From: Leptotrichia sp. oral taxon 218
GTDB taxonomy: Bacteria > Fusobacteriota > Fusobacteriia > Fusobacteriales > Leptotrichiaceae
Direction of reading: 5' to 3'
Assembly: GCF_018128225.1 (NCBI RefSeq)
Contig: NZ_CP072377.1
Coordinates: forward strand, 558,001 to 622,000
DNA length: 64,000 nucleotides
The notes beneath the pieces were generated by a model. That model did not search any database and was not told the DNA's origin. It saw nothing but the letters and a program-made list of their open reading frames with translations. The position numbers and the translations under genes are program-made. Shown piece after piece: positions 37,163 to 54,500 of the stretch (the first letter of the stretch is position 1; each line of letters opens with the position of its first letter).

Positions 37163-40100
37163 ATGACAAATAATTTAAAACATTTGAAACAGGAATTGAA
37201 ATCTTTTGCCAAGAGAGTAAAAGATTTTAAATATACAGATTCAGCGCTGATTTCGTTTTTATTAACGGGAGCGATTGGAACTGGAGGACTTTCATTCAAT
37301 CTTTTCTCGGCTCAAGACGAAATAAAAGAGCAGACAAAGGCGATTAACAATTCAATCGGACAATTAAAACAGGATTTTAAAAAAGCAAGAGAACAAAATA
37401 ACAAGCTACTTCGTAACACAAATTTAGAATTAATTCAACTGACAGAACAAGGAGATCATGTAGTAAAATCCCCTTGGAGCAGCTGGCAATACGGAATAAA
37501 TGGAATTTACAACAATTGGCAAGGACATTACAAAGGTCGTGGGGATAAAACTCCTGATGTAAAATATGAAAGAGATAAGACAATGGGGAAATATAAATAT
37601 AATACGACTCCAAATACACATGCTCTTTACGGAAATACAACAGAACTTGGATTAAAAAGAGAACCAAATGCAATGATACCAGTATCAGCTTCACTTACAC
37701 CACTTGTGCCAAAGATAAAGGTGGCGGATGTGTCAATGGCAGTTGATATTAGTAATTTACCTTCATTTACTCCAAGAACAGTGAAATCTCCACAAAAACC
37801 TGAAGTTACATCATTGGGTACAGTAAATGAACCTGTTTTTGAAATGAATGCAGTTTCAATTGGGAATGAAACAGATAAATACTTTTATAGTCCATATAAT
37901 CAACAAAGTACATCTCAAAAGACATCAGCTGGGCGTGGGATAATTGAGCCAGTTGCTGTTACTGGTGGAAATATTATAGCTATGAGAGAAAATATTGATA
38001 TGAATCCTGCTTTACCTATAAATCAAAAATATTATACTGAACCAAATCACGGTATATGGCATTATTCAAATAAAAATTTAAATATTTCAAATGTATTCAG
38101 AGGGGATACAATGCAAAGTTATACAGATAGTGCACATAGTGATCTTAGTGTTCATACTTGGGAAAATCCAACTGCTACGCTTACAATAAATAATTCGGCT
38201 ACAGTTGCTGACAATTCAATGACTGCTCCTATTACTTCGGATCCTAAAACTGGTTTTTTTAAGATGACAGGTGGATATGGGTCTCCTGCAAAAAAAAATA
38301 AAACTACAGGTGAGTTGAAACCTACTTCTCAACCTGCGGGTGGATCATTTTTTGATTATTCTGCACCAGGAAAAACATTAGATCCAGACGATCTTTCAAT
38401 ATTGTATAATAATGCAAATGTGGTCTATACTAGAAAAAATCAATCAAATCTTGGGGATACAGATAATTTGATGGAATTGGCACATTTAGATTTACATTAT
38501 GCGAGTACAATAGATAAAGAAAAAAACAAATTGAATTCACTAGCAGGTAGTGGTGTTGTTTCGAACGAAGCTAAAGTTGCATTTGATGATGCTTCAAAAA
38601 TTGCAATATTCAATAATAGTGATATTGATAGTGCTAAAGATGGTTCCAAAACAATGGCTCAAACTTTTATAAATAACAGTAAAATTATATTAGAAGGTAG
38701 AAATATAGCTTTTTCTAATAGTTATGATCACTTTCAAGCAGCGCATTTTGGAGCTGATACAGCAACTAATATAAATTATGTAGATAAAATGAGATTTGAT
38801 GTTGGAGGTATTGTAATAAATACTGGAGACATTGTATCACATCCGTATCAAGAAAGTGGAACAAATACAACACCTTATGATTTACTTTCGGCTGCATTTA
38901 TAGTTTCAAAAGATACAGCAAGAGGTGACTCTAATTCATTGGCGCAATATCAAATATTATATAACTCGGGAAATATAGATTTGTATAATAAAAAATCATC
39001 AGTATTTTTCTTGAATCCTAATGAGAATTTTTTATTAGATTATAGACTTAAATTTGGTCCAGCAGGAAGTCTTGAATATAGTGGAAATGCTGGGACTCAA
39101 GCGCCAAAAAGACCTATTACAGTAGTTAATAGAAATAATATAAAACTTTATGGAGAAAATTCTGTTGGGGTTTATGTAAAAACACCTGTAGATTTGACGA
39201 TGGATTTTAAGGATAACGCAGGTACAAATTTTAAACCTATGAATATATATGGAGATGAAAGTGTTGGATTATTTGTACAAAAAACAGCAGCAAATGCAAG
39301 AGCTACTGTAAATGGGAATTTTGCAGTAAATATTGGAGATTCAAGTGATAACGGAAATCAGACTTATACTTCTAATAATACAGCAGATCTTGATAATGCA
39401 CCAACAGATAAAACAACAACAGGAAATTATTTAACAGCATATGGATTAAATAACAATGATGAAGCAATAGAAAATTCATACGGAATTTTTGCCGCTACAG
39501 ACATTGATTTTTCTCAAAATTTAGCTAACGGCATAAACGGCGGACATCAAATAGTTATATACGGAAACAGTAAAAATAATATTGGTGTCCTAACAAGTAC
39601 AAAAGGAGCTTCTAATGATGGAACTAATTATAATCTAGGTTCTGGAATAATTGGACTTAAAGAAGGTTTAAAAAATATAGGAATAGCGCTTAATGGTCAA
39701 AAAAATGCGCAAGTGACTGCTGATAAAATAGTTATGTCTGGCGGTGATGAAAATACGGCTATTTATGCTATGGGAGATAATAACGCAGGTACAACTGAAA
39801 AAGTGACAGTAAATAGTGTAAATGATGCAAGTGTTACTTCGCCTTTTGCGCCATCACAAACTAGAAATTCTATTGCAATTTATGCAGCCAAAGGATCTAA
39901 TGTAACAGTAAATAAGGATTTTAAAGTTAATACAAAAGTTATTAGTGCAATACCTGCTTCAGGAACAAGTACACAAAATGCTGGTGGAGTTTATGCTACT
40001 GGAGAAGGTACTGTAGTTACACTAGGTGCTACAACTCCTGCTACAAAAATTGAAGTTGAAGGAGCGGATATTTTAGATAGTGCTGGAAAATCGACTGGAG

Positions 40101-43100
40101 ATAAGGCTGGATTTGGATTATTTGCAGATGGCGGAGCTAAAATTAGTGCTATTGGAACAGGTGGAAGCAGTTTGGTAAAAGTTAAAAATGGTTCGGCTGC
40201 TGTAGTTTCACTTGGAGATACTAGTACTAGTACTAGTACTTCATCAGAAATAAATTTAACTGGTGCAACTGTGGATTATGATGGTGAAGGGTATGCGCTT
40301 TATACTGATAAATCTAGTGGAAGTGGATCTGGAGCTATTAATATGACAAATGCGACATTGGAGTTGAGAGGAAAAGCTGTCGGATATGTAAACGATAGAA
40401 ATAACGCTGGTGCTGTAACTTTTAATAATACTACAATTAATGTGTATGATAATGATGTGATAATTGCAGATTTGAAAGATACAAGCGGAAATAAGATAAA
40501 TATAAACATTGATGGTAAGACTACCTTGAAAAGCCAATTAATTGGTTCTGGAATTGTCGCAATAAATGATAAGACAAAAAATGCTCCTAACGGTACTTTT
40601 AAATATGCGGTTGTGGATGGAGCCAAAATTACTATAAGCTCGGCTATAGATAGATCAGATAATTCAGGTACAGATACTGATAGTGAAGTTTTTTCAAAAA
40701 GATTTTTATATCAAAATTCTATAATTGATGTAGATAAAACAGGTTTGGTAAAAGCAGAATTAAATGATTCGCAATTGCAAAGAATAGATTCTAATCTTAA
40801 AACTCCTGTCGGACTTGCAGTAACAGCAAGTGCAAAAACAGAAAATACTTCAACAACAGGAATTAATAATAGTGGGAAAATAGAAGCAGATAGAACAGTT
40901 GGTACTGATAAAGGTGGAATTGGTCTTTATGTAGATTACGGATTTATTAATAATAATTCTACGGGAGTGGTAAATGTAGAGAAAGGAACATTTAATGCTC
41001 CTAATGAAAAGGCAATAGGAATATTTGGAACAAATAGCACTAAAATAGTCAATGACGGACAAGTAAATGCTGGAGGTAAAAAGTCAATCGGTATTTTAGG
41101 ACTTTCTTATAGAATTGATTCAGCGACAGGTATTGTAAAAAATCCAAAAGATGAACTATATTATGATAATGTAGTTGCTCATTCTGGACACAAATTCGGA
41201 ATAGTAAATGTTGAAAATAGTACAACTGGTAAAATTACAATGGATGGTGACGGAGCTGTTGGGATGTTTATAAAAAATAACAGCAACGATAAAAATGGTA
41301 CAGCATATATCGTGACAAATGCTCTTGACAGAAGAACTAAAAATGACACACATGGTGTAAATAAAGGTGAAATTACGATTAATGGAAGCAGTAGTTCGGT
41401 TGGAATGGGAGCAAATAACGGTATAATTACAAATGATACAACTGGTAAAATCACTGTAAACGGAACAAAATCAGCTGGAATGTACGGAACAAACGAATCT
41501 GACTTAATAAACAACGGAGAAATCAATGTTGCAGCTACATCCGCTAAAAACGAGTCAATTGGAATGTACATTGACGACCAAAAATCTACAATTACAAATA
41601 CAGGAAAAATAAATGTCGGAAAATCTTCTTACGGAATTTTTGGGAAAAAAGTTGATATGACAAGTGGAGAAATTAATGTTGATGACAATGGAGTTGGAGT
41701 TTACTCAACTGGTCCTGCTGTAAGTCTAACAGGTGGAAAAATTAATGTGGCAAACAATAACGCCGTTGGAGTTTACATCGCTGATGATGCGACTAATCCG
41801 CAACCTGCAACAGTTACAGGAAATGTGGATATGAAAGTTGGAGATACGGATTCATTTGGATATTTGATAACAGCTAAGAATGCCAAGACTGATTTGACAA
41901 CACATGCGCCAAACGATGTTCACATTGGAGAAAAATCTGTATATATTTATTCAGGAGCGCCAAAAGCGTTAGGTGGAAAAATTGAAAACTACTCTAATAT
42001 TGTGACTGATAAAAATAACGGATATGGAATTTATTCATCGCAGGATTCAATAAATTATGGAAATATTGACTTGAGATCTGGAGATGGGAATATAGGAATT
42101 TACTCAACGCAGGGAGTCGGGAAAAACTATGGAACGATTACAGTTGGGACAAGTAATATAGCTAATAAACAATATGGAATTGGAATGGCGACTGGGTATT
42201 ATGATGAAACTACAAAAGCAACATCAAATGTAGGAACGATTGAAAATTATGGAACGATAAATGTTTCTCAGGAAAACAGTGTTGGGATGTATGCCGTTGG
42301 AAAAGGAGCAAAAGCGATAAATAGAGGAACAATTAACTTAGACGGCAAGAATACGACAGGAATGTATATTGACAGATATGCAGAAGGGGAAAACTACGGA
42401 GTAATTCAGACTACGCCGACAGCAAACGGAACAGGAATAAAAGGTGTGGTAGTGACAAATGGAGGAGTTATCAAGAACTACGGAACGATAAATATAGCAG
42501 GAAATAAAAATATGGGAGTGTACGCATTTAGAGGAGATGAGACAGATCCGTCATATGTGCCGTATGTAGAAAGCGGGACAGGAAACACATCGACAAGACC
42601 ATATTTAGAAGGAACGGCGACAGACAGGAAAATAACAGGAAGTTCAGTAGTAAAAGTTCCACCGGCATCATTACCGAGCGCAGTATCAATTTCAATAAGC
42701 GGAGTGGAAGTATCGCCAGTAAAAGTTGATACAAATGTAGCATCACCAAAGGCGCCAGAAGTTCTTATTACTGACTTGACAGGACTTACTAAACTGAATT
42801 TGGCGACAGAGCAGATGGATCACGATCATACGCAGTCAAATGCAGAAATATCAAGTATAGGAATGTATGTAGATACATCGGGAATAAATTACACAAAACC
42901 AATTCAAGGATTGAGCAATTTATACGGATTAACAGACATTGACTTGATAATGGGAACAGAAGTAACAAAATACTTAAATGCCAAAGCAATACAGATAGGA
43001 GACAACATATTGAAGCCGTATAATGATGCGTTGGCAGGTGTTGTGTCTTCGGGAGTTACATTGAATGTAAATTCAGCCAGTCTGACTTGGATAGCGCAGC

Positions 43101-44284
43101 CAGTGGAATCAAAAAATATAAATGCACCAATAAAGACTGTATATATGGTAAAAATTCCTTATACTGACTTTGCGAGTGAAAATGATACGGACACAGCACA
43201 TTTCTTGGATGGACTTGAACAGAGATATGGAGTTGAAGACATTCATTCGAGAGAAAAACAGATTTTCAACAAACTTAATAGCTTAGGAAAAGGGGAAAAT
43301 CATATATTTGCACAAGCTGTAAATGAAATGAAAGGTTACGAGTATTCAAATACGCAGATGAGAATTAATTCGACTGGAAATGCTTTGGATAAAGAGTTCA
43401 AATATTTGCACGACGAATGGAGAAATCCTTCTAAACAGAATAACAAGATAAAAGTGTTTGGACAAAAAGATGAATTTAATACAGATACTGCAGGAGTAAT
43501 TGACTATGACAGCAATGCTTACGGAGTGGCTTATGTTCACGAAGATGAAGCAGTTACGCTTGGAAATTCAACTGGATGGTATGCTGGAGCAGTTTCAAAC
43601 AGATTTAAGTTTAAAGATTTAGGAAAATCAGCTGAACAGCAGTCAATGATTAAAGCAGGACTGTTTAAGACAATGTCGCCAGTAAAAGACCACAACGGAA
43701 GTTTAAGATGGACAATTGCAGGAGATGTGTTTGGCGGAGTAAATAATATGCACCGTAAATTCTGGGTTGTAGACGATGTGTTTGAATCAAAAGCTGACTA
43801 CTACAGCTATGGAGCGGCACTAAAAACAGATTTAGGTTATGACATAAGATTGTCTGAAAGAACGCATCTAAGACCTTATGGAGCGTTAAAGATGGAATAT
43901 GGAAGATTCTCAAGCGTGAAGGAAGACAGAGGTCAGATGAACTTGGAAGTAAAAGGAAACGACTACTTCTCAGTTAAACCAGAAGTTGGAGCAGAGTTTA
44001 AATATGTTCAGCCACTAGCGGTTAGAACTCAGTTGTCGGTTGGACTTTCAGCTGCATATGAAAATGAACTTGGAAAACTTAATAGACTTAATCAGGCAAG
44101 AGTTCGTTATACGACAGCGGACTGGTATAACTTGAGAAATGAGAAAGAGGACAGACACGGAAATGGTAAGTTTGATTTGAATTTGGGAATTGACAATACT
44201 AGATTTGGAGTGACAGTAAACGCAGGATATGACACTAAAGGAGAAAATATTAGAGGTGGACTTGGATTTAGATTGATTTACTAA
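37163..44284 (+). CDS. Giant type V autotransporter (surface adhesin type)
   Basis: 2373 residues. The first 30 residues are charged, then a hydrophobic run (ALISFLLTGAIGTGGLSFNLFSA) and a short coiled coil: the extended N-terminal region found on fusobacterial autotransporters. The passenger (about 200-2030) is a long Asn/Gly/Thr-rich beta-helix with recurring units of the form N-x-G-x-I and G-x-G-I/V-Y (YGIFAATD, IGMYIDDQ, YGIYSSQD). A Pro/Val-rich linker precedes the C-terminal barrel (about 2100-2373), which ends GGLGFRLIY with the terminal aromatic residue needed for outer-membrane insertion. Probably an adhesin like RadD-type proteins; the ligand is unknown. GAAGGAAG precedes ATG 37163. 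Monocistronic. Confidence 0.92.
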   Translation: MTNNLKHLKQELKSFAKRVKDFKYTDSALISFLLTGAIGTGGLSFNLFSAQDEIKEQTKAINNSIGQLKQDFKKAREQNNKLLRNTNLELIQLTEQGDHVVKSPWSSWQYGINGIYNNWQGHYKGRGDKTPDVKYERDKTMGKYKYNTTPNTHALYGNTTELGLKREPNAMIPVSASLTPLVPKIKVADVSMAVDISNLPSFTPRTVKSPQKPEVTSLGTVNEPVFEMNAVSIGNETDKYFYSPYNQQSTSQKTSAGRGIIEPVAVTGGNIIAMRENIDMNPALPINQKYYTEPNHGIWHYSNKNLNISNVFRGDTMQSYTDSAHSDLSVHTWENPTATLTINNSATVADNSMTAPITSDPKTGFFKMTGGYGSPAKKNKTTGELKPTSQPAGGSFFDYSAPGKTLDPDDLSILYNNANVVYTRKNQSNLGDTDNLMELAHLDLHYASTIDKEKNKLNSLAGSGVVSNEAKVAFDDASKIAIFNNSDIDSAKDGSKTMAQTFINNSKIILEGRNIAFSNSYDHFQAAHFGADTATNINYVDKMRFDVGGIVINTGDIVSHPYQESGTNTTPYDLLSAAFIVSKDTARGDSNSLAQYQILYNSGNIDLYNKKSSVFFLNPNENFLLDYRLKFGPAGSLEYSGNAGTQAPKRPITVVNRNNIKLYGENSVGVYVKTPVDLTMDFKDNAGTNFKPMNIYGDESVGLFVQKTAANARATVNGNFAVNIGDSSDNGNQTYTSNNTADLDNAPTDKTTTGNYLTAYGLNNNDEAIENSYGIFAATDIDFSQNLANGINGGHQIVIYGNSKNNIGVLTSTKGASNDGTNYNLGSGIIGLKEGLKNIGIALNGQKNAQVTADKIVMSGGDENTAIYAMGDNNAGTTEKVTVNSVNDASVTSPFAPSQTRNSIAIYAAKGSNVTVNKDFKVNTKVISAIPASGTSTQNAGGVYATGEGTVVTLGATTPATKIEVEGADILDSAGKSTGDKAGFGLFADGGAKISAIGTGGSSLVKVKNGSAAVVSLGDTSTSTSTSSEINLTGATVDYDGEGYALYTDKSSGSGSGAINMTNATLELRGKAVGYVNDRNNAGAVTFNNTTINVYDNDVIIADLKDTSGNKININIDGKTTLKSQLIGSGIVAINDKTKNAPNGTFKYAVVDGAKITISSAIDRSDNSGTDTDSEVFSKRFLYQNSIIDVDKTGLVKAELNDSQLQRIDSNLKTPVGLAVTASAKTENTSTTGINNSGKIEADRTVGTDKGGIGLYVDYGFINNNSTGVVNVEKGTFNAPNEKAIGIFGTNSTKIVNDGQVNAGGKKSIGILGLSYRIDSATGIVKNPKDELYYDNVVAHSGHKFGIVNVENSTTGKITMDGDGAVGMFIKNNSNDKNGTAYIVTNALDRRTKNDTHGVNKGEITINGSSSSVGMGANNGIITNDTTGKITVNGTKSAGMYGTNESDLINNGEINVAATSAKNESIGMYIDDQKSTITNTGKINVGKSSYGIFGKKVDMTSGEINVDDNGVGVYSTGPAVSLTGGKINVANNNAVGVYIADDATNPQPATVTGNVDMKVGDTDSFGYLITAKNAKTDLTTHAPNDVHIGEKSVYIYSGAPKALGGKIENYSNIVTDKNNGYGIYSSQDSINYGNIDLRSGDGNIGIYSTQGVGKNYGTITVGTSNIANKQYGIGMATGYYDETTKATSNVGTIENYGTINVSQENSVGMYAVGKGAKAINRGTINLDGKNTTGMYIDRYAEGENYGVIQTTPTANGTGIKGVVVTNGGVIKNYGTINIAGNKNMGVYAFRGDETDPSYVPYVESGTGNTSTRPYLEGTATDRKITGSSVVKVPPASLPSAVSISISGVEVSPVKVDTNVASPKAPEVLITDLTGLTKLNLATEQMDHDHTQSNAEISSIGMYVDTSGINYTKPIQGLSNLYGLTDIDLIMGTEVTKYLNAKAIQIGDNILKPYNDALAGVVSSGVTLNVNSASLTWIAQPVESKNINAPIKTVYMVKIPYTDFASENDTDTAHFLDGLEQRYGVEDIHSREKQIFNKLNSLGKGENHIFAQAVNEMKGYEYSNTQMRINSTGNALDKEFKYLHDEWRNPSKQNNKIKVFGQKDEFNTDTAGVIDYDSNAYGVAYVHEDEAVTLGNSTGWYAGAVSNRFKFKDLGKSAEQQSMIKAGLFKTMSPVKDHNGSLRWTIAGDVFGGVNNMHRKFWVVDDVFESKADYYSYGAALKTDLGYDIRLSERTHLRPYGALKMEYGRFSSVKEDRGQMNLEVKGNDYFSVKPEVGAEFKYVQPLAVRTQLSVGLSAAYENELGKLNRLNQARVRYTTADWYNLRNEKEDRHGNGKFDLNLGIDNTRFGVTVNAGYDTKGENIRGGLGFRLIY

Positions 44285-44482: not shown

Positions 44483-46629
44483 TTAATTTTCTTTGTAAGT
44501 TAATGCTCTTGTTGCGTTTAATATTGCAATTAATGCGACTCCGACATCTCCAAATACGGCTTCCCACATTGTAGCAAATCCTAGTGCTCCCATTACTAAA
44601 ATTATGATTTTTACACCTAGTGCAAAAATTATATTTTGCCAGACAATTTTTTTTGTCTTTTTGGCAATTTTTAGAGCGGTTACTATTTTTGAGGGTTCAT
44701 CGTTCATTATAATCATATCAGCAGCTTCGATTGCGGCATCACTTCCTACACCACCCATTGCTACTCCAATATCAGATCTTGCAAGAACTGGTGCATCGTT
44801 TATTCCATCACCCACAAATAGCACTTTTCCATTCGTACTTTTATTTTTCAAAAATTCTTCCATTTTTTCAACTTTTCCAAGCGGTAATAAATCAGTGAAT
44901 ACTTTTGAAATATTTAATTTACTAGCCACATTTTCCCCAATTTTTCTGTTATCACCTGTTAGCATTACAACATTTTTTATCCCTAAATTATTAAGTTCTT
45001 CAACTGTTTTTTTAGCGTCTTCTTTTATTTCGTCCGCAATTATTAAATTTCCCAAATATTTCCCATCTTTTGCGACATAGACAACTGTTCCAACAGCGTC
45101 TTTTTCAGCAGCTTCTACATTTTCTTTTTTAATAATTTAAGATTTCCTGCTAAAATTTCGCTATTTTCATATTTTACTTTTACTCCATGACCTGCGATTT
45201 CTTCAAATTCAAATTCTGAACTGTCAGTTTTTTCAAGTTTTTTATTGTTTTTTTCATATTCTAAAACAATTGATTGTGCAATTGGGTGATTTGAAAAACT
45301 TTCTGCAATAGCTGCGTATTTTAATAAATCGTCTTTTGTGTATTTGGAATTTTGAACATTTATTTCTGAGACTTTAAATTTACCTTTTGTAAGTGTTCCA
45401 GTTTTGTCAAAAACAACAGTTTCCAAATTGTTTAATGCTTCTAAATAATTTGCTCCTTTTATTAAAATTCCATTTTTTGAAGCTCCACCGATTCCCCCAA
45501 AAAATCCTAGCGGAATTGAAACAACTAAGGCGCACGGACACGAAACTACTAAAAAGATAAGCGCTCTGTAAAGCCAAGTTGAAAACTGTGCATCTTTTAC
45601 AAATATCATTGGCAAAATTGTAATAAGTAAAGCGATTATTACAACTGCTGGTGTGTAAAATCTTGCAAATTTTGTAATAAAGTTTTCAGTTTTAGATTTT
45701 TTAGAACTTGCATTTTGTACCAAATCTAATATTTTTGAAATTGTAGAATTTTCAAATGACTTTGTAACTTCGATTTCTACAAGATTTGTGGTGTTTATAA
45801 ATCCACTTAGAATTTCATCTCCAATCTCAAATGTTCTTGGAATGGCTTCTCCAGTCAAAGCGGATGTGTCAAAAGTTGAACTTCCATTTATAATTTTTCC
45901 ATCTAATGCGACTTTTTCTCCAGGTTTTATAACTATTATATCGCCTAATTTTACTTCTTTTGGCAAAACTTTTTTAATTTCTCCCTCAATTTTTAAGTTT
46001 GCATAATCAGGTCTAATATTCATAAGTGAGGTGATGGATTTTCTCGATTTTCCAACTGCCAAATCTTGGAACATTTCTCCAATTTGGTAAAATAACATAA
46101 CTGACACAGCTTCAGGAAACTCTTTTATCGCAAAAGCTCCAAGTGTCGCAATCGCCATCAAAAAGTTTTCATCAAAAATTTGTCCTTTTTTTATATTTTT
46201 CACAGCTTTAAATAAAACATCATATCCGACTGTAAAGTAGCTTATTAAAAATAAAATTAATCTTAGAACAAATAAATTTTTTGGAACAAATATTGCGGCT
46301 GCAAGTATAATTGCACCTAAAATAAATCTATTTCTTATACTTTTAAAATTTTCTTTCGTTTCTTCTATTTCCTCATCTTCTTCAATTGCAGAATTTGGCA
46401 TTAAAACAGTCACACCTTCTTCAACTCTGTCAACTTCTTTTTGAACAAGTTTTGTGATGTCTTCGCTAGAAAATTTTTTGTTAGGATTAATTACAATTTT
46501 TTTTCCTAAAACATCGACAGTAGCTGCTTTTATTTCATCCAAAGCATTTAGATTATGCTCGATTTTTGCGGCACATTGGGGACATTCAAGACCTTTTATT
46601 CCCAAAGTGCATTCGTTATTTTTTTCCAT
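44483..46629 (-). CDS. cadA: Heavy-metal P1B-ATPase, CadA/ZntA type, with a -1 frame break
   Basis: One gene in two frames. The first part (46629-45115) has an N-terminal metal-binding domain with ECPQC, the actuator TGEA, the membrane CPC motif SCPCALV, DKTGTLT and the SNHPIA motif, and ends LKKKM-stop. The second (frame open from about 45130 to 44483) continues with MLTGDN, GDGINDAP and a last helix pair ATMWEAVFGDVGVALIA typical of the Zn/Cd/Pb class. Adding one A at the A6 run (plus-strand T 45125-45130) joins them into about 715 residues, the normal length. The site reads TTA AAA AAG, an in-phase slippery heptamer. ATG 46629 is chosen behind AGAGG; a GTG at 46638 overlaps that site. It would export Zn, Cd or Pb; a SmtB/CzrA-like operator covers the transcription start. 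Confidence 0.82.
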
Positions 46630-46655
46630 TTTTTTCACCTCTATTATTTAATATA

Positions 46656-46810: not shown

Positions 46811-47257
46811 ATGGAAATAAATTATTTAGGACTGGGAGCAGATTTGAAGCAAAATTTATTTTGTGAATTTGAAAAAAATGAAAGGGTTTTGTATGTTTTT
46901 GAAAATGCTTCGACTTTTTATGAAATAAAAAAAGAACTTTTACAAGATGTGGAATTTAACGAAAAAATTGGGATTTTTCATAATTTTAAACTTATGAATA
47001 GTTATGATTTTAATGAAAATCTTTTTTTTACAGATAAAATTTTGATAAAAGAAGAAAAGCAAGTTATATTTTTTTATAATGCGATAAAAAATAAAATTGG
47101 GAAAAAACTGAAAGTTAAAAATTATTATGACATAATTGATGTGGCTTATAATTATTATAATTTGTTTGCAGAGTTGCAGGAATATAAAATTGATGCACAA
47201 AAAATTGAAGTGGAAAATTGGCAGCGGGAAATTTTTGAGAATTTGAAGGAAATTGAT
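46811..47257 (+). pseudogene. addB: AddB-like nuclease/helicase subunit, 5' part interrupted by the IStron
   Basis: 149 codons (MEINYLGLGADLKQNLFCEF to EIFENLKEID), then the IStron supplies a stop. The piece resembles the N-terminal domain of AddB/RexB-like proteins and lies directly before addA in the standard addB-addA order; it lacks a visible Walker A motif. Removing 47258-49037 rejoins GAT to AGA AGC ATT AAA in the same frame, giving a protein of about 1001 residues once two further single-A breaks are repaired. GGAAAAG precedes ATG 46811. Confidence 0.7.
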
Positions 47258-47745
47258 TAAAAATGCGGTCGCACACTCGTGACGCAAGGAATGAGTTAGA
47301 CCGAGAAGTATAGTCAGCATATATAGAAATATGTATGTGGAGATAGCAACTTAAAAAAAGCTATCCAATACTACTCGAATTGCTGGGAACCCCTAAAGCT
47401 GGTATAACTACAACATAATACCTAAATAAATACAGTACAGATGTGAAAGTGGCGAAAGCAGAAAAAATATACTAGATGACATAAGGTTAAATCCTAAGTG
47501 TTAAGATAATGGGCAATCAGCAGCCAAGACCGAAAGGTAAGGTTCAACGACTATTCCTCCTGAGGGAAGTACACCAAAGCTGGTGGAAGTGGGTAGACCC
47601 AAACAGGTAGAGCTGTGGGATAAGATATAGTCTGTGCTTAATAGAAATATTAAGAAGTTCATAAGAGAACTGCATAGGTGGTAGCGTACTTATGTGAACG
47701 ACAACCTCTAAAACGACTAAGTCGGTTTTTAGGTTCATATATTTA
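47258..47745 (+). ncRNA. Group I intron ribozyme portion of the IStron
   Basis: The conserved elements are in order: P AATTGCTGGGAAC (47378-47390), Q AATCAGCAGC (47515-47524), R GTTCAACGACTA (47542-47553), S AAGATATAGTC (47622-47632). GCTG in P pairs with CAGC in Q (P4), and GACTA in R pairs with TAGTC in S (P7). An internal guide GTCAG (47313-47317) can pair with the 5' exon TTGAT, placing the required G-U pair at the splice site. Downstream hairpins (CTTAAT/ATTAAG and a longer one near 47703-47735) resemble P9 extensions. If active, it would splice the whole element out of addB mRNA. The 3' limit given is approximate; the real 3' splice site is at the far end of the element. Confidence 0.82.
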
Positions 47746-47822
47746 GAAAAATTTTACTTTTTCATTTACTTACAGTATAAAAAATAGTATACTTATGTAT
47801 AAGTAAATGGAGGTGAAATCAA

Positions 47823-48925
47823 ATGGAAAAAGCATACAAGTTCAGATTTTATCCAACTAAAACTCAAATAGAAAAGTTAAATTGTACTTTTGGTTGTGTT
47901 AGATATGTCTATAATCATTTTTTAGGTTTAAAACAAAAGCTGTATAATACAGAGAAAAAGTCTATGTCATATAGTGAGTGTAGTAAAGAATTAACAGTTT
48001 TAAAGAAAGATAAAGAATGGTTAAAAGATGTAGATAAATTTTCTTTACAAAATTCTTTAAAAGATTTAGATAAAGCCTATAAGAACTTTTTTAGCGGAAA
48101 TGGCTATCCAAAGTTTAAATCTAAGAAAGATAATAGAAAATCATATAGAACCGGTTATACAAATAATAATATAGAGTTTTTAGATAAATGGATAAAAGTA
48201 CCTAAGTTAGGAAAACTAAAAATAAGAGATAAGATGAAGCCACAAGGAAGAATAATAAATGCAACAATAACACAAGCACCTAGCGGAAAATACTATATAT
48301 CTCTATGTTGTACAGATGTAGAAGTAGAAAAGTTAGAGAGCACAAATAAAAATGTTGGAATAGATTTAGGTATAAAGAACTTTGCGATTACCAGTGATGA
48401 AACCTTAATAGAGAATCCAAAATATTTACAGAAGTCTTTGAAAAAACTAGCTTTATGCCAAAGAAAACTGTCACGAAAAACAAAGGGCAGTTCAAATAGA
48501 AATAAGGCTAGAATAAAAGTAGCGAAATGTTATGAAAAGTAACAAATCAAAGAAAAGACTTTTTGCAGAAATTATCGACAGAGCTAATAAGAAAATATGA
48601 TATTATTTGTATGGAAGATTTACAAGTAAAAAATATGGTGAGAAATCATAAATTAGCAAGAAATATTGTAGACGTATCATGGAGTGAATTTAGTAGAATA
48701 CTGGAATATAAAGCAAAGTGGTATGGAAGAACGATAGTAAAAGTAGATAAGTTTTTTGCAAGTAGTCAAATATGTAACTGTTGCGGATATAAGAATGAAG
48801 AAGTAAAAGACTTAAGCATAAGAGAATGGAATTGTACATTCTGTGGAGCTGTACATAATAGAGATATAAATGCAGCCAAAAACATACTAAAAGAAGGGCT
48901 AAGGATATTAAGAGAAAGTGCTTAA
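47823..48925 (+). pseudogene. tnpB: IStron tnpB, reading frame broken once
   Basis: Two ORFs (to 48542, and from about 48540 to 48925) join into one TnpB of about 367 residues if one A is added to GAAAAG at 48534-48539, giving [17 protein letters not shown]. Catalytic acids are all present: Asp in VGIDLGIKNF, Glu in CMEDLQVKN, Asp in NRDINAA; zinc ribbon CNCCG...CTFCG. The N terminus matches the family (KFRFYPTKTQ, FGCVRYVYNHF). As read, the product lacks the last two acids and zinc ribbon and would be inactive. AAATGGAGGTG precedes the ATG and lies at the edge of an inverted repeat (47763-47774 with 47796-47809). Confidence 0.8.
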
Positions 48926-49037
48926 ATATATAAATATATGAACCGTAGGAACTATGGGGATAGCTTGGTAAATTTAGTTGGCTAACAGAAGCAACTACTA
49001 CCCAAGAACCTCGCGACTTCAGTCGTGAGAGGTTCAG
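48926..49037 (+). ncRNA. Probable omega-RNA scaffold at the IStron right end
   Basis: From 48962 the block AGCTTGGTAAATTTAGTTGG, then CTAACAGAAGCA and CCCAAGAACCTC, aligns base for base in order with 12803-12878 of the other tnpB element, and both are preceded by a small hairpin and end in a terminal stem and GTTCA. Conservation between elements with different tnpB genes and different left ends supports a functional RNA. Splicing and guide-RNA function would compete for the same 3' sequence. Confidence 0.55.
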
Positions 49038-51594
49038 AGAAGCATTAAATTGCAAGTTGAGAAAAAAAATTTAATTTTGCCTTATATGATTAGAAAAATT
49101 GAAAATATTTCAAAAGATTTTTTGAAAAAAATAAAAAAATTTGTTTTGTGAATAAAGTTAATTTTACTCCATTTGAAAAAGAAATAATTATTTATTTGAA
49201 AAAAAATGGAGTAGAACTAAAAAATATTTTGCAGCTTTCAAAAAAAGATTTTGACGAAAAGGAATTAAAAATAAAAAGTGGCTTTTCAATTTTGCCAAAA
49301 GAAAAATTTTTGGAAAAAAATATAGATATTAAAATTTTTGAATACAGCTCAAAATTTAATCAGCTGTTAGGCTTGGTAAAAAAATTATCGGATGAAAAAG
49401 AGCAATGTCAAATTTACGATGTTCAGGATATAAATAGTGAAACTAAAAGAGATTATCAGCTGTTAAACCAAAAGAAAATAATTTACAATTTGGAAGAAAC
49501 TTTACAGGAAACTAAGATTTATAAAGTTTTGGATGTGCTTTGCAACATTTTGAATGAAGTGAGAATTAAAAAAAGAGAAAATGGGATTGAATATATTTTT
49601 AAAGTGAAAGAATTATATAACGGGTTTAAGTTAAAAGAATTTTTAGAAACATTTAAAATTGAAAATATTTACTGGCTTTTTCAAAAATTTGTCAGAGAAG
49701 ATTATAAATATTTATCGATTGAAATGTTGAAAAAATATTTGGAAAACGAAAGCAAAAATTTTAAAATTAAAGAGAAAATTTATTTTAATCTTGAAAAAAA
49801 ATATAAAAAATTTGAAGAAAATTTTGATTTTGATTTTAAAAATTGTGAAAATAAAAAAGATAAAAAAGAAAAAAATAAAAAAGAAGAAGATAAAGAAAAT
49901 AAAGAAATTAAAAAAAATAAGAAAATTGAAAAAGTTGAAAAGATTGAAAAATTAAAAAAGAGAAAAATAAATTTTCTGAACTGAAAAAAAATATAAATAA
50001 ATTTATAAAATTTTTAGAAGAATTAGAAAAAATTTTTGAAATAAAAAATTTGCAGGATTATTCAAAATTTTTGGAAGAAGTATTTGACAGACAAAAAAAT
50101 AGCGGGAAAAAAATTAGGGACAAATATTTTGAAGCTCTCTCAGAAATTGCAGTTTTAGAAGAATTTGACTTTGACAATCTTTGGGACAAATTTTTTGACA
50201 AGGGAAATATTTCGGCGGGACTTTTAAAGATGTTTTTAAAATATTTGGACAAGAAATCAATTAGCTTGGACTTGGAAGAAATTGCGGGACAAGAGAATGA
50301 CAATCAATACAAAATTAACGAATTTAAAACTTTGCCTGAAACGAATAAAAAAAACATTGTGTTTTTAAATTTTCAGGATACTTTTCCAAAAGGCAAGGTT
50401 AACAATTATTTATTTTCGCAAATTCAGAGAAAGAAAATGGGACTACCAGTTCCAGAAGATGTGAAAGCGATAGAAATTTTTAGATTTTTGAACGCAATTT
50501 TTGGTGCAAAAAAAGTTTGTCTTTCATATATAAAAAATTTGGACGAAAATGTTGATTGCTCTGGGATTTTGGAAGAAATTAAATTAAAATATGATTTAGA
50601 GATAAATAACAAAAATAAAAAAATTTCTGAAGAAGAAGAGATGGAATTTATAAAAAATTATTTTATAGAAAATTATAAAGAGAAAAAAATTGGGAAATTT
50701 ATTCAGTCAAGACTTTTAAAAGATGTGGAAGAGTTAAAAAATGAAAAAATAACTTTGGGTTATTACGATTATAAAAATTTAAAAGAATCAGAATATGCCT
50801 ATTATATTGATAAAAAATTGGGAAAAGTGGAAAGAGAAAAAATTGAAGAAGTTATTGATGCGAGATTTTTTGGGACGATAATTCATTCGATTTATGAAAA
50901 TATTGTGAAAAAAAATAAAAAAATGTTGGAAAAAGGAAATTTTGACATAAGTGAGGAAGAAATTGCAAGTGAATTTGAGGCTGGAATACAGTCCTACAAA
51001 TATAAAATTCCGCAGGAATATTTGGAATTTTATAAAAATATTTCGTTTGAAGATTTAAAAATTGGAATAAAAAAATATTTTGTTGACTTATCAAATAAAA
51101 TTAGTGATAAAAGTGTGATAAAAGTTAGCTCGGAAGAAAGAATTAAAGAAAAGTTTGAAAAAGAGATTGACAGCGAAAAATTTGGAAATGCAGCTTTTAA
51201 TATTTCAATTGACTTGCACATAAAAGATGAAAAAAAAGATAAAAAAGAAGAAATTTTGGTTGACTATAAAACTGGAAATTTGACGCAAAAAAGAATTGAT
51301 GATGCATTTACGCAACTTGACTTTTATTCGATTGTTTTGGGAGAAAATGAATATAAAAAATATGTTGTGGATGTCTGGGATGGGAAAATTATTTCCGACA
51401 GTCGAAAAGATAATAAAAAACTTACGAAAGATGAAGTGATGGAAGTTTTGAAAAAATATTTTGAAGTGGAAAGTGATAAAAAAGTAAGTTTTTACAGATT
51501 GGGAGAAAAAAATAGCACTTTAGAAAGTTCAAATCAGAAAAAATACGAATTGATTTTGCGATGGGAGGACGAAAATGAAAAAGCAGGAAAGTAA
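49038..51594 (+). pseudogene. addB: AddB-like nuclease/helicase subunit, 3' part with two frame breaks
   Basis: The frame resumes RSIKLQVEKKNLILPYMI, breaks at A7 (49133-49139), continues from about 49140 as CFVNKVNFTPFEKEII to 49984, breaks again at A6 (49954-49959), and then runs to 51594. Each break is healed by one added A. The C-terminal part has the PD-(D/E)XK nuclease core: RFFGTIIHSIYENI and EILVDYKTGNLTQ. A Lys/Glu-rich stretch (KKDKKEKNKKEEDKENKE) holds the second break. With AddA this enzyme would process double-strand breaks for RecA. addA begins inside its last 20 bases. Confidence 0.68.
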
Positions 51595-54500
51595 TAAAAT
51601 AATATTAAAAGCGAGTGCAGGAACAGGAAAGACTTATAGACTGTCGCTTGAGTATATTTACAATTTATTAAAAAATATAGACTTTAAAAATATCGTTGTC
51701 GTAACTTTTACAAAAAAGGCAACTGCGGAAATAAAAGAGCGGATTTTTGATTTTTTGTATCAAGTCGCTTTTGAAAAAAGTAAAGGAATTGAGTTAAAAA
51801 AAAATCTGAAAGAAATTTATAATTTGAGTGAAGATGATTTTGATAAGGAAAAATTGCAGAATATTTATTTTGAAATGTTGAAAAATAAAGAAGATATTAG
51901 AATTTACACAATTGACAGTTTTACAAACAGAATTTTTAAACAGGCGATTGCTCCTTATTTTGAAATTTCGAGTTTTGAAACTCTTGACAGTGAGAGCAGT
52001 GATTTTTATGAAAAAATATTTAAGAAAATTATGGACAACGAAAATTATTATAAAAAATTTGAGTTTTTGATTGAAGAAGTTGGAGAAAAAAAAGAAATTA
52101 AAAATTATGTAAAAATCATTGAAGAGCTTGTGGAATTTCAAAAAAAATATGTTATTGCAAAAGATTTTGAGTTAAAAGAAGAAAAACAAAAAAAACAAGA
52201 AAGTGACAAAAAAGTTTTAGAAGTATTTGATTTTTTGACGCCGCTTCAAGAAATTTATTCTGAAGTAAAAATATTTTCTGAAGAAAAAGGGAAAAATATT
52301 TCTGAATGTTTTAATGACAAACTTTTTGAAATTTTTGACCAAATAAAAAAAGAAAGTGAAAATTCTTCTGAAAAAAAAATAGAAATTGTGGTTAAAAATT
52401 TGGAAAAACTTTTAGATTCTAAAATAAAAAATTATTATAACGGAAAGTTTATTCGGAAAAAAGAATTAACAGAAACTTTGCAAGAACTTCAAAAAAACTT
52501 TTTAGATAAATTTTCAAAATATATTTTAAAAAATAAAGTTTATCCGTTTCACAATAAATTAAAAGAATTTTGTGAATTTTTGTATGATTTGGTCCGAAGA
52601 GAAAAAATTTCTTCCAAAAAATTTACGCACGACGATATTTCGATTTATACTTACGAATTCATTTTTGACAAAAATTTAAAATTTATAAAAAATAATAAAT
52701 TTACTCAAGATTTTTTTGAAATAATTGGTGGAAATATTGATACAATTATGGTCGATGAATTTCAGGACACAAGCATTTTGCAGTGGAAAATTTTAAAGCT
52801 CATAATGGACTGCGCTAAAAATGTAATTTGCGTGGGAGATGAAAAACAAAGTATTTATGGTTGGCGTGACGGAGAAAAAGAGCTTTTTGAAAATCTTGAC
52901 GAAATAGTTGACGGCTCGAAAGTGGAAACTTTGAAAAAATCGTACAGAAGTTATAAAGCGGTTATTGAAAATGTAAACAAAATTTATTGCGATTATGATG
53001 AAAAAAGCAATTGGAATTATGAAAAAGTTGATTATAAATCTGAAGATGCTGAATACCAAAAAGGTTATTTTGAGTTTGAAATAAATGAGTTGGAAGATAA
53101 AAAGTCGCCAACTGAAAAGAGAATTTTTAAAAATATTATTCAAATGGTGGAAAATAAAGAGATTAAAAATCTTGGAAAAAGTTGTATAATCGCTGGAAAA
53201 AATAAATATTTATCTGAAATCGCAAGTGAATTGAATGCTCATAATATTCCATATACTTTGAAGAGTAACAAGTCAATTTTGGAGCACAGTGCAGTTAATC
53301 CAATTTATAGACTTATAAAATATTTTTTATACAATAACTTTCAATATTTGTTAGAATTTCTTCGTTCAGATTTAATCGGATGTCTGAATAGCCATGTGAA
53401 ATATATTTTAGAAAATAAAAATATTATTGAAATTTTTATGAAAAATTCAAAAGAAGAAGATTTTGATTTGTTTTTAGAAAATTTTGATTTTAATTTTGAT
53501 TTTGAAAAAAATAAAAATGAAAATACTAAAAATATAAATATAAATATTGAAAGAATAGAAAAAAGTGAAAGAAAAAGAGAAAAAGAAAGTGAAAGAGAAT
53601 ATGAAAGAGAAGAAGAAAAATCAAGAAAAGAAGAAATAAAAGATGAAAAAATAGAAAAAAAATATGAAGATAAAAAAGAAGAAATAAAAATAGAAGATAA
53701 AGAAAAAGAAAAAGATAAAGAAATAAAAATAAAAAAAGAAGAATTATTGAAATATAAAAAAATAAATTTAATTGAAAGAAATGGCTTTTTATTTTCGGAT
53801 GTTTTGAGTAAAATAAAAAAATTAAAAAAATTGTCTGAAAACTTAAATTCAAAAACAAAAAAAGAAAATTTTTCGCTAGAAGTTATAAAAGATTTTGAGA
53901 TAACAAATTTTTATTCAACAAATAGCGACATAAAAAATATTTTTGAATTTTTCAATATTTTAAAAAGTCACACAGATTTATTTGACTTTATAAATTATAT
54001 CGAAGAAAAAAAGAAGAGATAAAGCAATTTGGAAGTGAGGATAAAAACGCAATAAATCTTATGACGGTGCATAAATCAAAAGGACTAGAATTTGATACGG
54101 TTTTTTATTATAAATGTAAGAGAATGAGCAAAAGTTCCCGAAATGAAACATCAAAAATAAAGACATTTATTCAATTTGACAGAAATTTTGAAAAAGTTAC
54201 GGAATTTTTGGTGACTTTGAAAAAATATGAAAAATTGATTTTAAAAGATGAAAAATATAAAAAAATCAGAGAATTGGAAGAAGAAAAAGAAAGAATTGAA
54301 GAAATTAACAGAGATTATGTGGCACTTACAAGAGCCAAGAAAAATCTGATTTTGCTGTTTGACATAAAAAAATCAGGTGGGAAATATTGCGATGAATTAA
54401 CTAAAAAATTGACTGAAAAATATTCAAAAGATTGTTCAGAAGATTGCTTAAATGAATGTGAAAAGTATTCAGCTGGAAAAATTTATGAAGAAATCAGAGA

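Follow-up and report, generated by a model that had tools for sequence, protein, structure and literature searches.

Comparative analysis supports the identification of the 1780-nt insertion in addB as a group A IStron, a group I intron combined with a tnpB gene of the IS200/IS605 type, located at a TTGAT target. The element lies within a 64,000-nucleotide stretch of DNA (the window) that spans positions 558001-622000 of the single contig of 2,172,496 bases representing its genome, designated G000. It is one of at least 34 IStrons in this genome, six at TTGAT (family 1, the TTGAT type) and 28 at TTTAT (the second, or TTTAT type), and every insertion classed as coding is in the sense orientation. 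We are confident in an overall account in which this group A IStron would have been placed 3' of TTGAT by a Y1 transposase, would be spliced from sense transcripts, and would be mobilised in trans by a separate insertion sequence (IS).

The sequence-only reading had set the 5' boundary of the element at TTGAT and its 3' boundary at a terminal G, position 49037, the last base of the end ...GGTTCAG, and both boundaries were confirmed by empty sites in G006 and G008. The comparison with related strains suggested in that reading found addB uninterrupted and with the same flanks in both genomes, at 97% identity in G006 (L145; 179 nt compared) and 82% in G008 (L146), and the alignments across 47257/49038 contain no gap and no target duplication. 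Open frames at this position comprise 1003 (G006), 1000 (G008) and 961 (G002) residues. Features of the element and its host gene are listed in Table 1.

Table 1. Features of the addB IStron and its host gene, in window coordinates.
Feature	Position	Strand	Basis
addB 5' exon, 149 codons	46811..47257	+	ORF list; open frames in relatives
TTGAT: target of the transposon, 3' end of 5' exon (P1 strand) and presumed TnpB TAM	47253..47257	+	precedes 6/6 family-1 copies; IGS pairing
IStron, 1780 nt, family 1 (TTGAT type)	47258..49037	+	empty sites and family-1 copies
GCACA, candidate transposase guide, 5' of left-end hairpin	47271..47275	+	second base follows target; role inferred
Left-end subterminal hairpin, within P1 loop of intron	47276..47295	+	resembles left end of intron-less IS L103/L104
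Internal guide sequence (IGS) GTCAG, P1	47313..47317	+	IGS/target agreement, 55/55 rows
Group I core P3-P9.2, with P7.1 and P7.2	47371..47694	+	pair counts
Inverted-repeat hairpin separating tnpB from the intron core, directly after GAACGA (47696-47701)	47703..47735	+	read by eye
tnpB, IS605 OrfB type, frameshifted into ORFs 47823-48542 and 48563-48925	47823..48925	+	Pfam
Right end of transposon, a presumed omega-RNA scaffold, with terminal hairpin at 49009-49032	48930..49037	+	34-nt end shared with L103
addB 3' part, frameshift-broken in assembly; PDDEXK_1 domain in 50050-51591	49038..51594	+	ORFs, Pfam

The predicted restoration of the host frame stands at the junction, where excision joins GAT to AGA AGC ATT AAA in phase 0 with 37 codons open, but not beyond it, as the addB frame is broken further downstream by frame-changing single-base differences between the assembly and G006. 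Restoration at the junction is automatic because insertion neither duplicates nor deletes target bases. A P-type ATPase gene, addB and addA (window 44483-46638 and 49038-54022) are all split by single-base differences relative to G006. Since the neighbouring P-type ATPase and addA genes are broken by the same kind of difference as addB, homopolymer sequencing error is suspected; the pattern points to such errors around addB, although the frameshifts may reflect true decay and addB may be a pseudogene in this genome. It is quite improbable that the element is a dead relic that no longer splices from a decayed addB: frameshifts in both the assembled addB and the window tnpB would suit such a history, but over its first 503 nt the element shares 94-100% identity with the five other family-1 copies, its intron retains the core pairs, the flanking genes carry like differences resembling homopolymer error, and at least 40 codons are open on both sides at 17 of the 34 host sites. 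Upstream in the window (37163-44284) is an autotransporter-like ORF of 2373 residues, and a similar ORF lies downstream of another IStron (L048).

The tnpB gene of the element matches the Pfam families HTH_OrfB_IS605, OrfB_IS605 and Cas12f1-like_TNB. It has no intact frame, being divided into 239 and 120 residues, while an intact TnpB of 367 residues is encoded by three of the six family-1 copies (L043, L044, L045). Among solved structures, the nearest natural relatives of family-1 TnpB are 8bf8 and 8h1j (E 1.8e-103), which we take to be ISDra2 TnpB. TTTAT-type TnpB had no match to solved structures at E 0.001, and a related-locus search of genome contigs returned only two distant TnpB loci. 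The IS component of group A IStrons is described as following P9.2 and a GAACGA-like motif and as flanked by inverted repeats (PMC4227781), and the position of the hairpin in the window element fits this arrangement. By analogy with ISDra2 (PMC8612924), the right end may serve as an omega-RNA.

The group I structure of the element is supported by covariation. Segments P, Q, R and S, claimed in the sequence-only reading, were recovered in order at 47378-47390, 47515-47528, 47542-47554 and 47622-47634, with labels that we assigned from the group I consensus. Helices were drawn on the window sequence with both IStron families in view, and were scored in an alignment of 34 introns from eight genomes, drawn from 49 rows plus extra rows. 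Standard pairs occupy 92.4% of 3062 cells, compared with 33.3-46.2% after a shift of the 3' partners by one to three columns; the rows represent few lineages, and counts of cells and rows overstate independence. Changes on both sides occur somewhere in 39 of the 91 pairs, and P3, P5, P5a, P6, P6a, P7.2 and P9 include pairs changed on both sides yet are 100% paired. In the long-range pairing P3, all cells are paired and four of six pairs are changed on both sides. The P4 (47381-47385/47518-47522) and P7 (47549-47554/47627-47632) pairings that had been noticed by inspection form in all 34 aligned introns, and being invariant are uninformative on covariation. For three of the helices as drawn, the paired fraction falls to 47-59%, and one of the five measures compared with shuffles, the number of further pair types, showed no excess, with 375 of 500 shuffles scoring as high. 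None of 100 shuffles folds as well as the intron RNA (z -3.3).

Pair counts from P3 to P9.2 reveal the IA2 features P7.1, P7.2 and an extended P9 in the window intron, and its class label (group A, with IA2 features) follows PMC4227781. Rfam covariance models, whose failure the sequence-only reading had listed as a refutation, gave no group I intron match in the window element up to E 10, a result that is uninformative because the models also missed the control, L166, presumed to be the published IStron LbISt1, up to E 1. A P-Q-R pattern search gave zero matches with an allowed gap too short for this to be meaningful. Group I introns without an IS part occur at TTGAT in one gene, which by eye is precorrin-6x reductase-like, in G007 (L167), G011 (L168) and G012 (L169); two were located in G007, two in G012, and one in G011, where a second was matched.

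Taken singly, the window element is ordinary for its kind, and what is new is the genome-wide picture. As the sequence-only reading had stated, TTGAT IStrons are on record: group A elements with TTGAT and TTTAT targets are in print (PMC4227781), and the group is characterised there by a T-rich pentanucleotide target (TTGAT, TTTAT, ATTAT), a 3' end of TCAG and no target duplication. The Cas13a of genome G001 aligns over all 1159 residues with PDB 5xwp/5xwy, structures of the Leptotrichia buccalis protein; G001 is accordingly taken to be L. buccalis, and the congeneric G000 to belong to Leptotrichia. Its single match to the element, L166, follows TTGAT and has an intron 87% identical to that of the window element; its 1755 nt and the 5-nt target sum to 1760, the published size of LbISt1 (PMC4227781). 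LbISt1 of L. buccalis is an IStron already published (PMC4227781 Table 1), and like the window element it belongs to group A and to the genus Leptotrichia, with a truncated ORF A and an ORF B (PMC4227781), but it occupies a different host gene and has one copy where G000 has six TTGAT-type and 28 TTTAT-type elements.

More distant systems share part of this arrangement. A CdISt1-type element on the Clostridioides difficile plasmid CP103805.1 (L189) has an intron 77% identical to that of the window element, a TTGAT target, the ...GGTTCAG end and an annotated tnpB. Splicing of CdISt1 variants has been confirmed (PMC4227781); published CdISt1 forms include an ORF A, whereas the IStrons of G000 have no Y1 TnpA match. 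Fusobacterium nucleatum, of the same phylum, likewise has two IStron types per genome, FnISt1 and FnISt2, but at 3-5 and 1-6 copies per strain rather than six and 28 (PMC4227781; PMC1924603). ISDra2 of Deinococcus radiodurans resembles the window element in its TTGAT target and TAM, its homologous TnpB and its lack of target duplication, and differs in having no intron and its own tnpA (PMC8612924). The 2014 survey recorded at most 24 IStrons per strain, in C. difficile, and the words 'orientation' and 'antisense' are absent from its main text (PMC4227781). No paper on the 34 copies, the shared ends or the sense-only bias was among the literature matches listed, in a search that most subscription journals fall outside. 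A 2024 study reportedly described how, in IStrons, splicing conflicts with the TnpB guide RNA.

The copy number of 34 may be a lower bound, because only 40 of the 221 candidates were scored when the element was used as query; a second search found the same 28 TTTAT copies. The five further family-1 copies are 94-97% identical to the window element. Insertion is directly 3' of TTGAT in six of six and of TTTAT in 28 of 28, and all 34 end in TTCAG. Empty sites were present at all 19 host loci compared, out of the 34 insertions, and these are gap-free over the 45 nt shown on each side. One phase-1 insertion (L049, at about 1788871 of G000) has an extra T at the 5' end of the element, which brings the host frame to a stop codon immediately within the intron. 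A count by eye in the relatives came to about 35 IStrons, 30 of which were resolved, and about 15 TTTAT-type copies occur in G012.

The identity of the target is mirrored within the element. The internal guide that had been proposed, GTCAG, is complementary to TTGAT, and GTAAG takes its place in elements at TTTAT. Over 55 rows from G000, its relatives and one C. difficile plasmid, the guide base agrees with the target base in every case (C/G 11/11, A/T 44/44). In the DNA, a candidate guide base lies beside the left-end hairpin, and was parsed in all but three of these 55 rows; two rows of L169 are introns that lack a transposon left end. All 42 parsed TTTAT rows have A at this base. At TTGAT it is C in seven rows and in L189 (misread by the program; GCACACTC by eye), and exceptionally T in L166. 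The target of IS608 is picked by base pairing with a guide that adjoins the left hairpin (PMC5934647). In RNA, the target pentanucleotide would be read by the IGS; in DNA it is probably read by the left-end guide, and TnpB presumably recognises it as its TAM.

Coding insertions in G000, classed as such by a reading of open frames, number 28 (six TTGAT, 22 TTTAT), and all are sense. Six insertions were classed as leader or intergenic (L048, L053, L054, L055, L062, L071). In a frame scan of 32 copies the best frame was antisense at L053 and L055, where one side of each holds 3 codons; L065 and L071 were scanned for sense frames alone, and L065 is sense according to its empty site. Antisense frames of at least 40+40 codons lie beneath longer sense frames at L046 and L064. 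Five of the 28 coding insertions are 10 or fewer codons from the stop (L050, L056, L057, L069, L070), and one (L047) is at a start codon, splitting the AT|G of guanylate kinase (gmk). Among sampled genes, TTTAT occurs 681 times in sense and 1124 times in antisense, and against this strand background the sense orientation of 22 of 22 TTTAT coding copies has a P of about 5e-10. In seven related genomes the sense frame was the best in 30 of 30 resolved copies, a count that includes shared sites (L171 and L172 are apparently one site in two genomes, and the site of L170 resembles that of L069), leaves out three starts without a right end, and has no row for L240 and L241.

The host genes identified by Pfam include a bacterial topoisomerase, topA (L046), a DNA_processg_A/DprA gene (L044), guanylate kinase (L047), phosphomannose isomerase (L063) and a queuosine synthesis gene (L069). 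Both topA and gmk are usually essential. The L068 host is a DHH protein that we label RecJ-like; the L066 host, which we label SbcC-like, had no Pfam match. Hosts in the relatives, assigned by eye, include RuvB, RecG, MutL, NagB and a dehydrogenase E2. Genes of DNA repair and recombination look frequent among the hosts, a post hoc observation (addB, dprA, topA, recJ-like; in relatives ruvB-, mutL- and recG-like genes by eye at L247, L249 and L251). The idea of phase selection, in which a stop codon lies just inside the intron (PMC4227781), was unsupported: phase 1 accounts for two of 22 TTTAT coding insertions where 5.5 are expected (one-sided P 0.06; chi-square over three phases P 0.04), and for five of 30 copies in relatives. 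The phase pattern of family 1 arises because TTGAT cannot end in phase 1, which would contain TGA (0 counted).

It is very unlikely that the sense-only pattern is an insertion bias tied to replication, with no contribution from selection for splicing. With origin and terminus placed by a guess from the way the elements point, 31 of the 34 IStrons and 17 of the 24 TnpB elements lacking an intron follow the leading strand, which carries about 74% of the coding bases in a sample from which the filter intended to exclude TnpB genes removed none. However, the two coding copies that run the other way (L063, L074) are sense within genes of their own strand, a fork-only model has a P of 2.4e-5, and intron-less elements are seldom inside genes. 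Replication direction accounts for part of the orientation bias.

Elements without an intron provide the comparison for selection on splicing. With a sense frame open for 40+40 codons as the criterion for lying inside a gene, 17 of 34 IStrons do so compared with two of 29 intron-less elements (Fisher P 2e-4). The latter comprise one of 20 TnpB elements (24 were found, and four without ends were left out), one of two TnpA-bearing IS copies, and none of seven miniature elements, three from G000 and four from relatives, with L230, which has no right end, left out. The TnpB element within a gene is L098; L084 is one codon short (39+45) and L081 has an antisense frame of the required size. The TnpA-bearing copy is L104, in an open frame of 216+129 codons, and the miniature element L233 has an antisense frame of 47+70. 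The group I intron that begins the element could splice all of it from sense transcripts and leave the host message intact. Indirect support for the idea that the window element hides itself by splicing, put forward in the sequence-only reading, comes from the sense-only coding insertions, from hosts such as topA and gmk, and from the rarity of intron-less elements in genes.

The IStrons carry tnpB but no tnpA, and for this reason mobilisation in trans is proposed. Four Y1 TnpA genes occur in G000, none of them within an IStron. Two belong to copies of an intron-less 2.1-kb IS (L103, L104) with a TTTAT target, whose second protein, of 475 residues, has a weak OrfB_IS605 match (E 7e-4, below cut-off). 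The right-end 34-mer of the window element (49004-49037) is identical in L103 and one base off in L104, and the left hairpin of this IS resembles that of the window element; by this comparison, subterminal palindromes like those of IS200/IS605 are present. Miniature elements of 265-320 bp at TTTAT, with IStron/IS-like ends but no intron core and no intact gene, were found in G000 (L036, L224, L227), G008 (L231), G006 (L232), G012 (L233) and G011 (L234). The 265-bp L036 joins a TTTAT-type left hairpin to a family-1 right end, and others (302-320 bp) have both ends of the TTTAT type. Some TTTAT-type IStrons (L047, L063, L176, L178) have a GACGCAAGGA-type left hairpin, as in the TTGAT type and the TnpA-bearing IS, which suggests that ends may be exchanged between element types.

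A Y1-type transposase of the IS200/IS605 kind would insert element DNA exactly 3' of TTGAT, and most likely the IStron is mobilised in trans by the TnpA of the separate intron-less IS with matching ends. The survey judged trans-mobilisation by an intact IStron unlikely, none being present, and inferred ORF B to be sufficient; a separate IS as transposase source is not considered in the available text of that paper (PMC4227781). It is rather unlikely that TnpB alone moves these elements, as that paper suggested, with shared ends reflecting only common descent. The spread of IStrons without ORF A in the survey (PMC4227781) would agree with movement by TnpB, as would G012, which has no closely matching TnpA despite its many IStrons; among 13 genomes such a TnpA (93-100%) is found only in G000 and G008. 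Against this, gene-less miniature elements with such ends and the same target occupy several sites, one of them combines the left hairpin of one type with the right end of the other, and ORF A is the essential one for ISDra2 and IS608 (PMC4227781).

Extending the proposal of mobilisation in trans, one pair of ends may in this genus be common to the TnpA-bearing IS, the miniature elements and the IStrons, so that one TnpA would move them all, the intron would be an adaptation for life in genes, and a switch of target would need matched changes in guide and TnpB. We give this broader scheme an even chance of being correct. The change from TTGAT to TTTAT co-varies with a C-to-A change in both the ribozyme guide and the left-end DNA guide and with the TnpB type, the DNA guide of L166 being the one exception; this exception, the weak TnpB match of the 475-residue protein and the situation in G012 weaken the scheme.

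The genome stands out for its at least 34 IStrons, with coding insertions that are all sense and hosts that include topA, dprA, a recJ-like gene and guanylate kinase. The TnpA-bearing IS offers a concrete answer to the question, left open by the survey, of how IStrons without ORF A would move. The presence side by side of elements that have related ends, some with the intron and some lacking it, also constitutes a natural experiment on the benefit that splicing may bring to a transposon.
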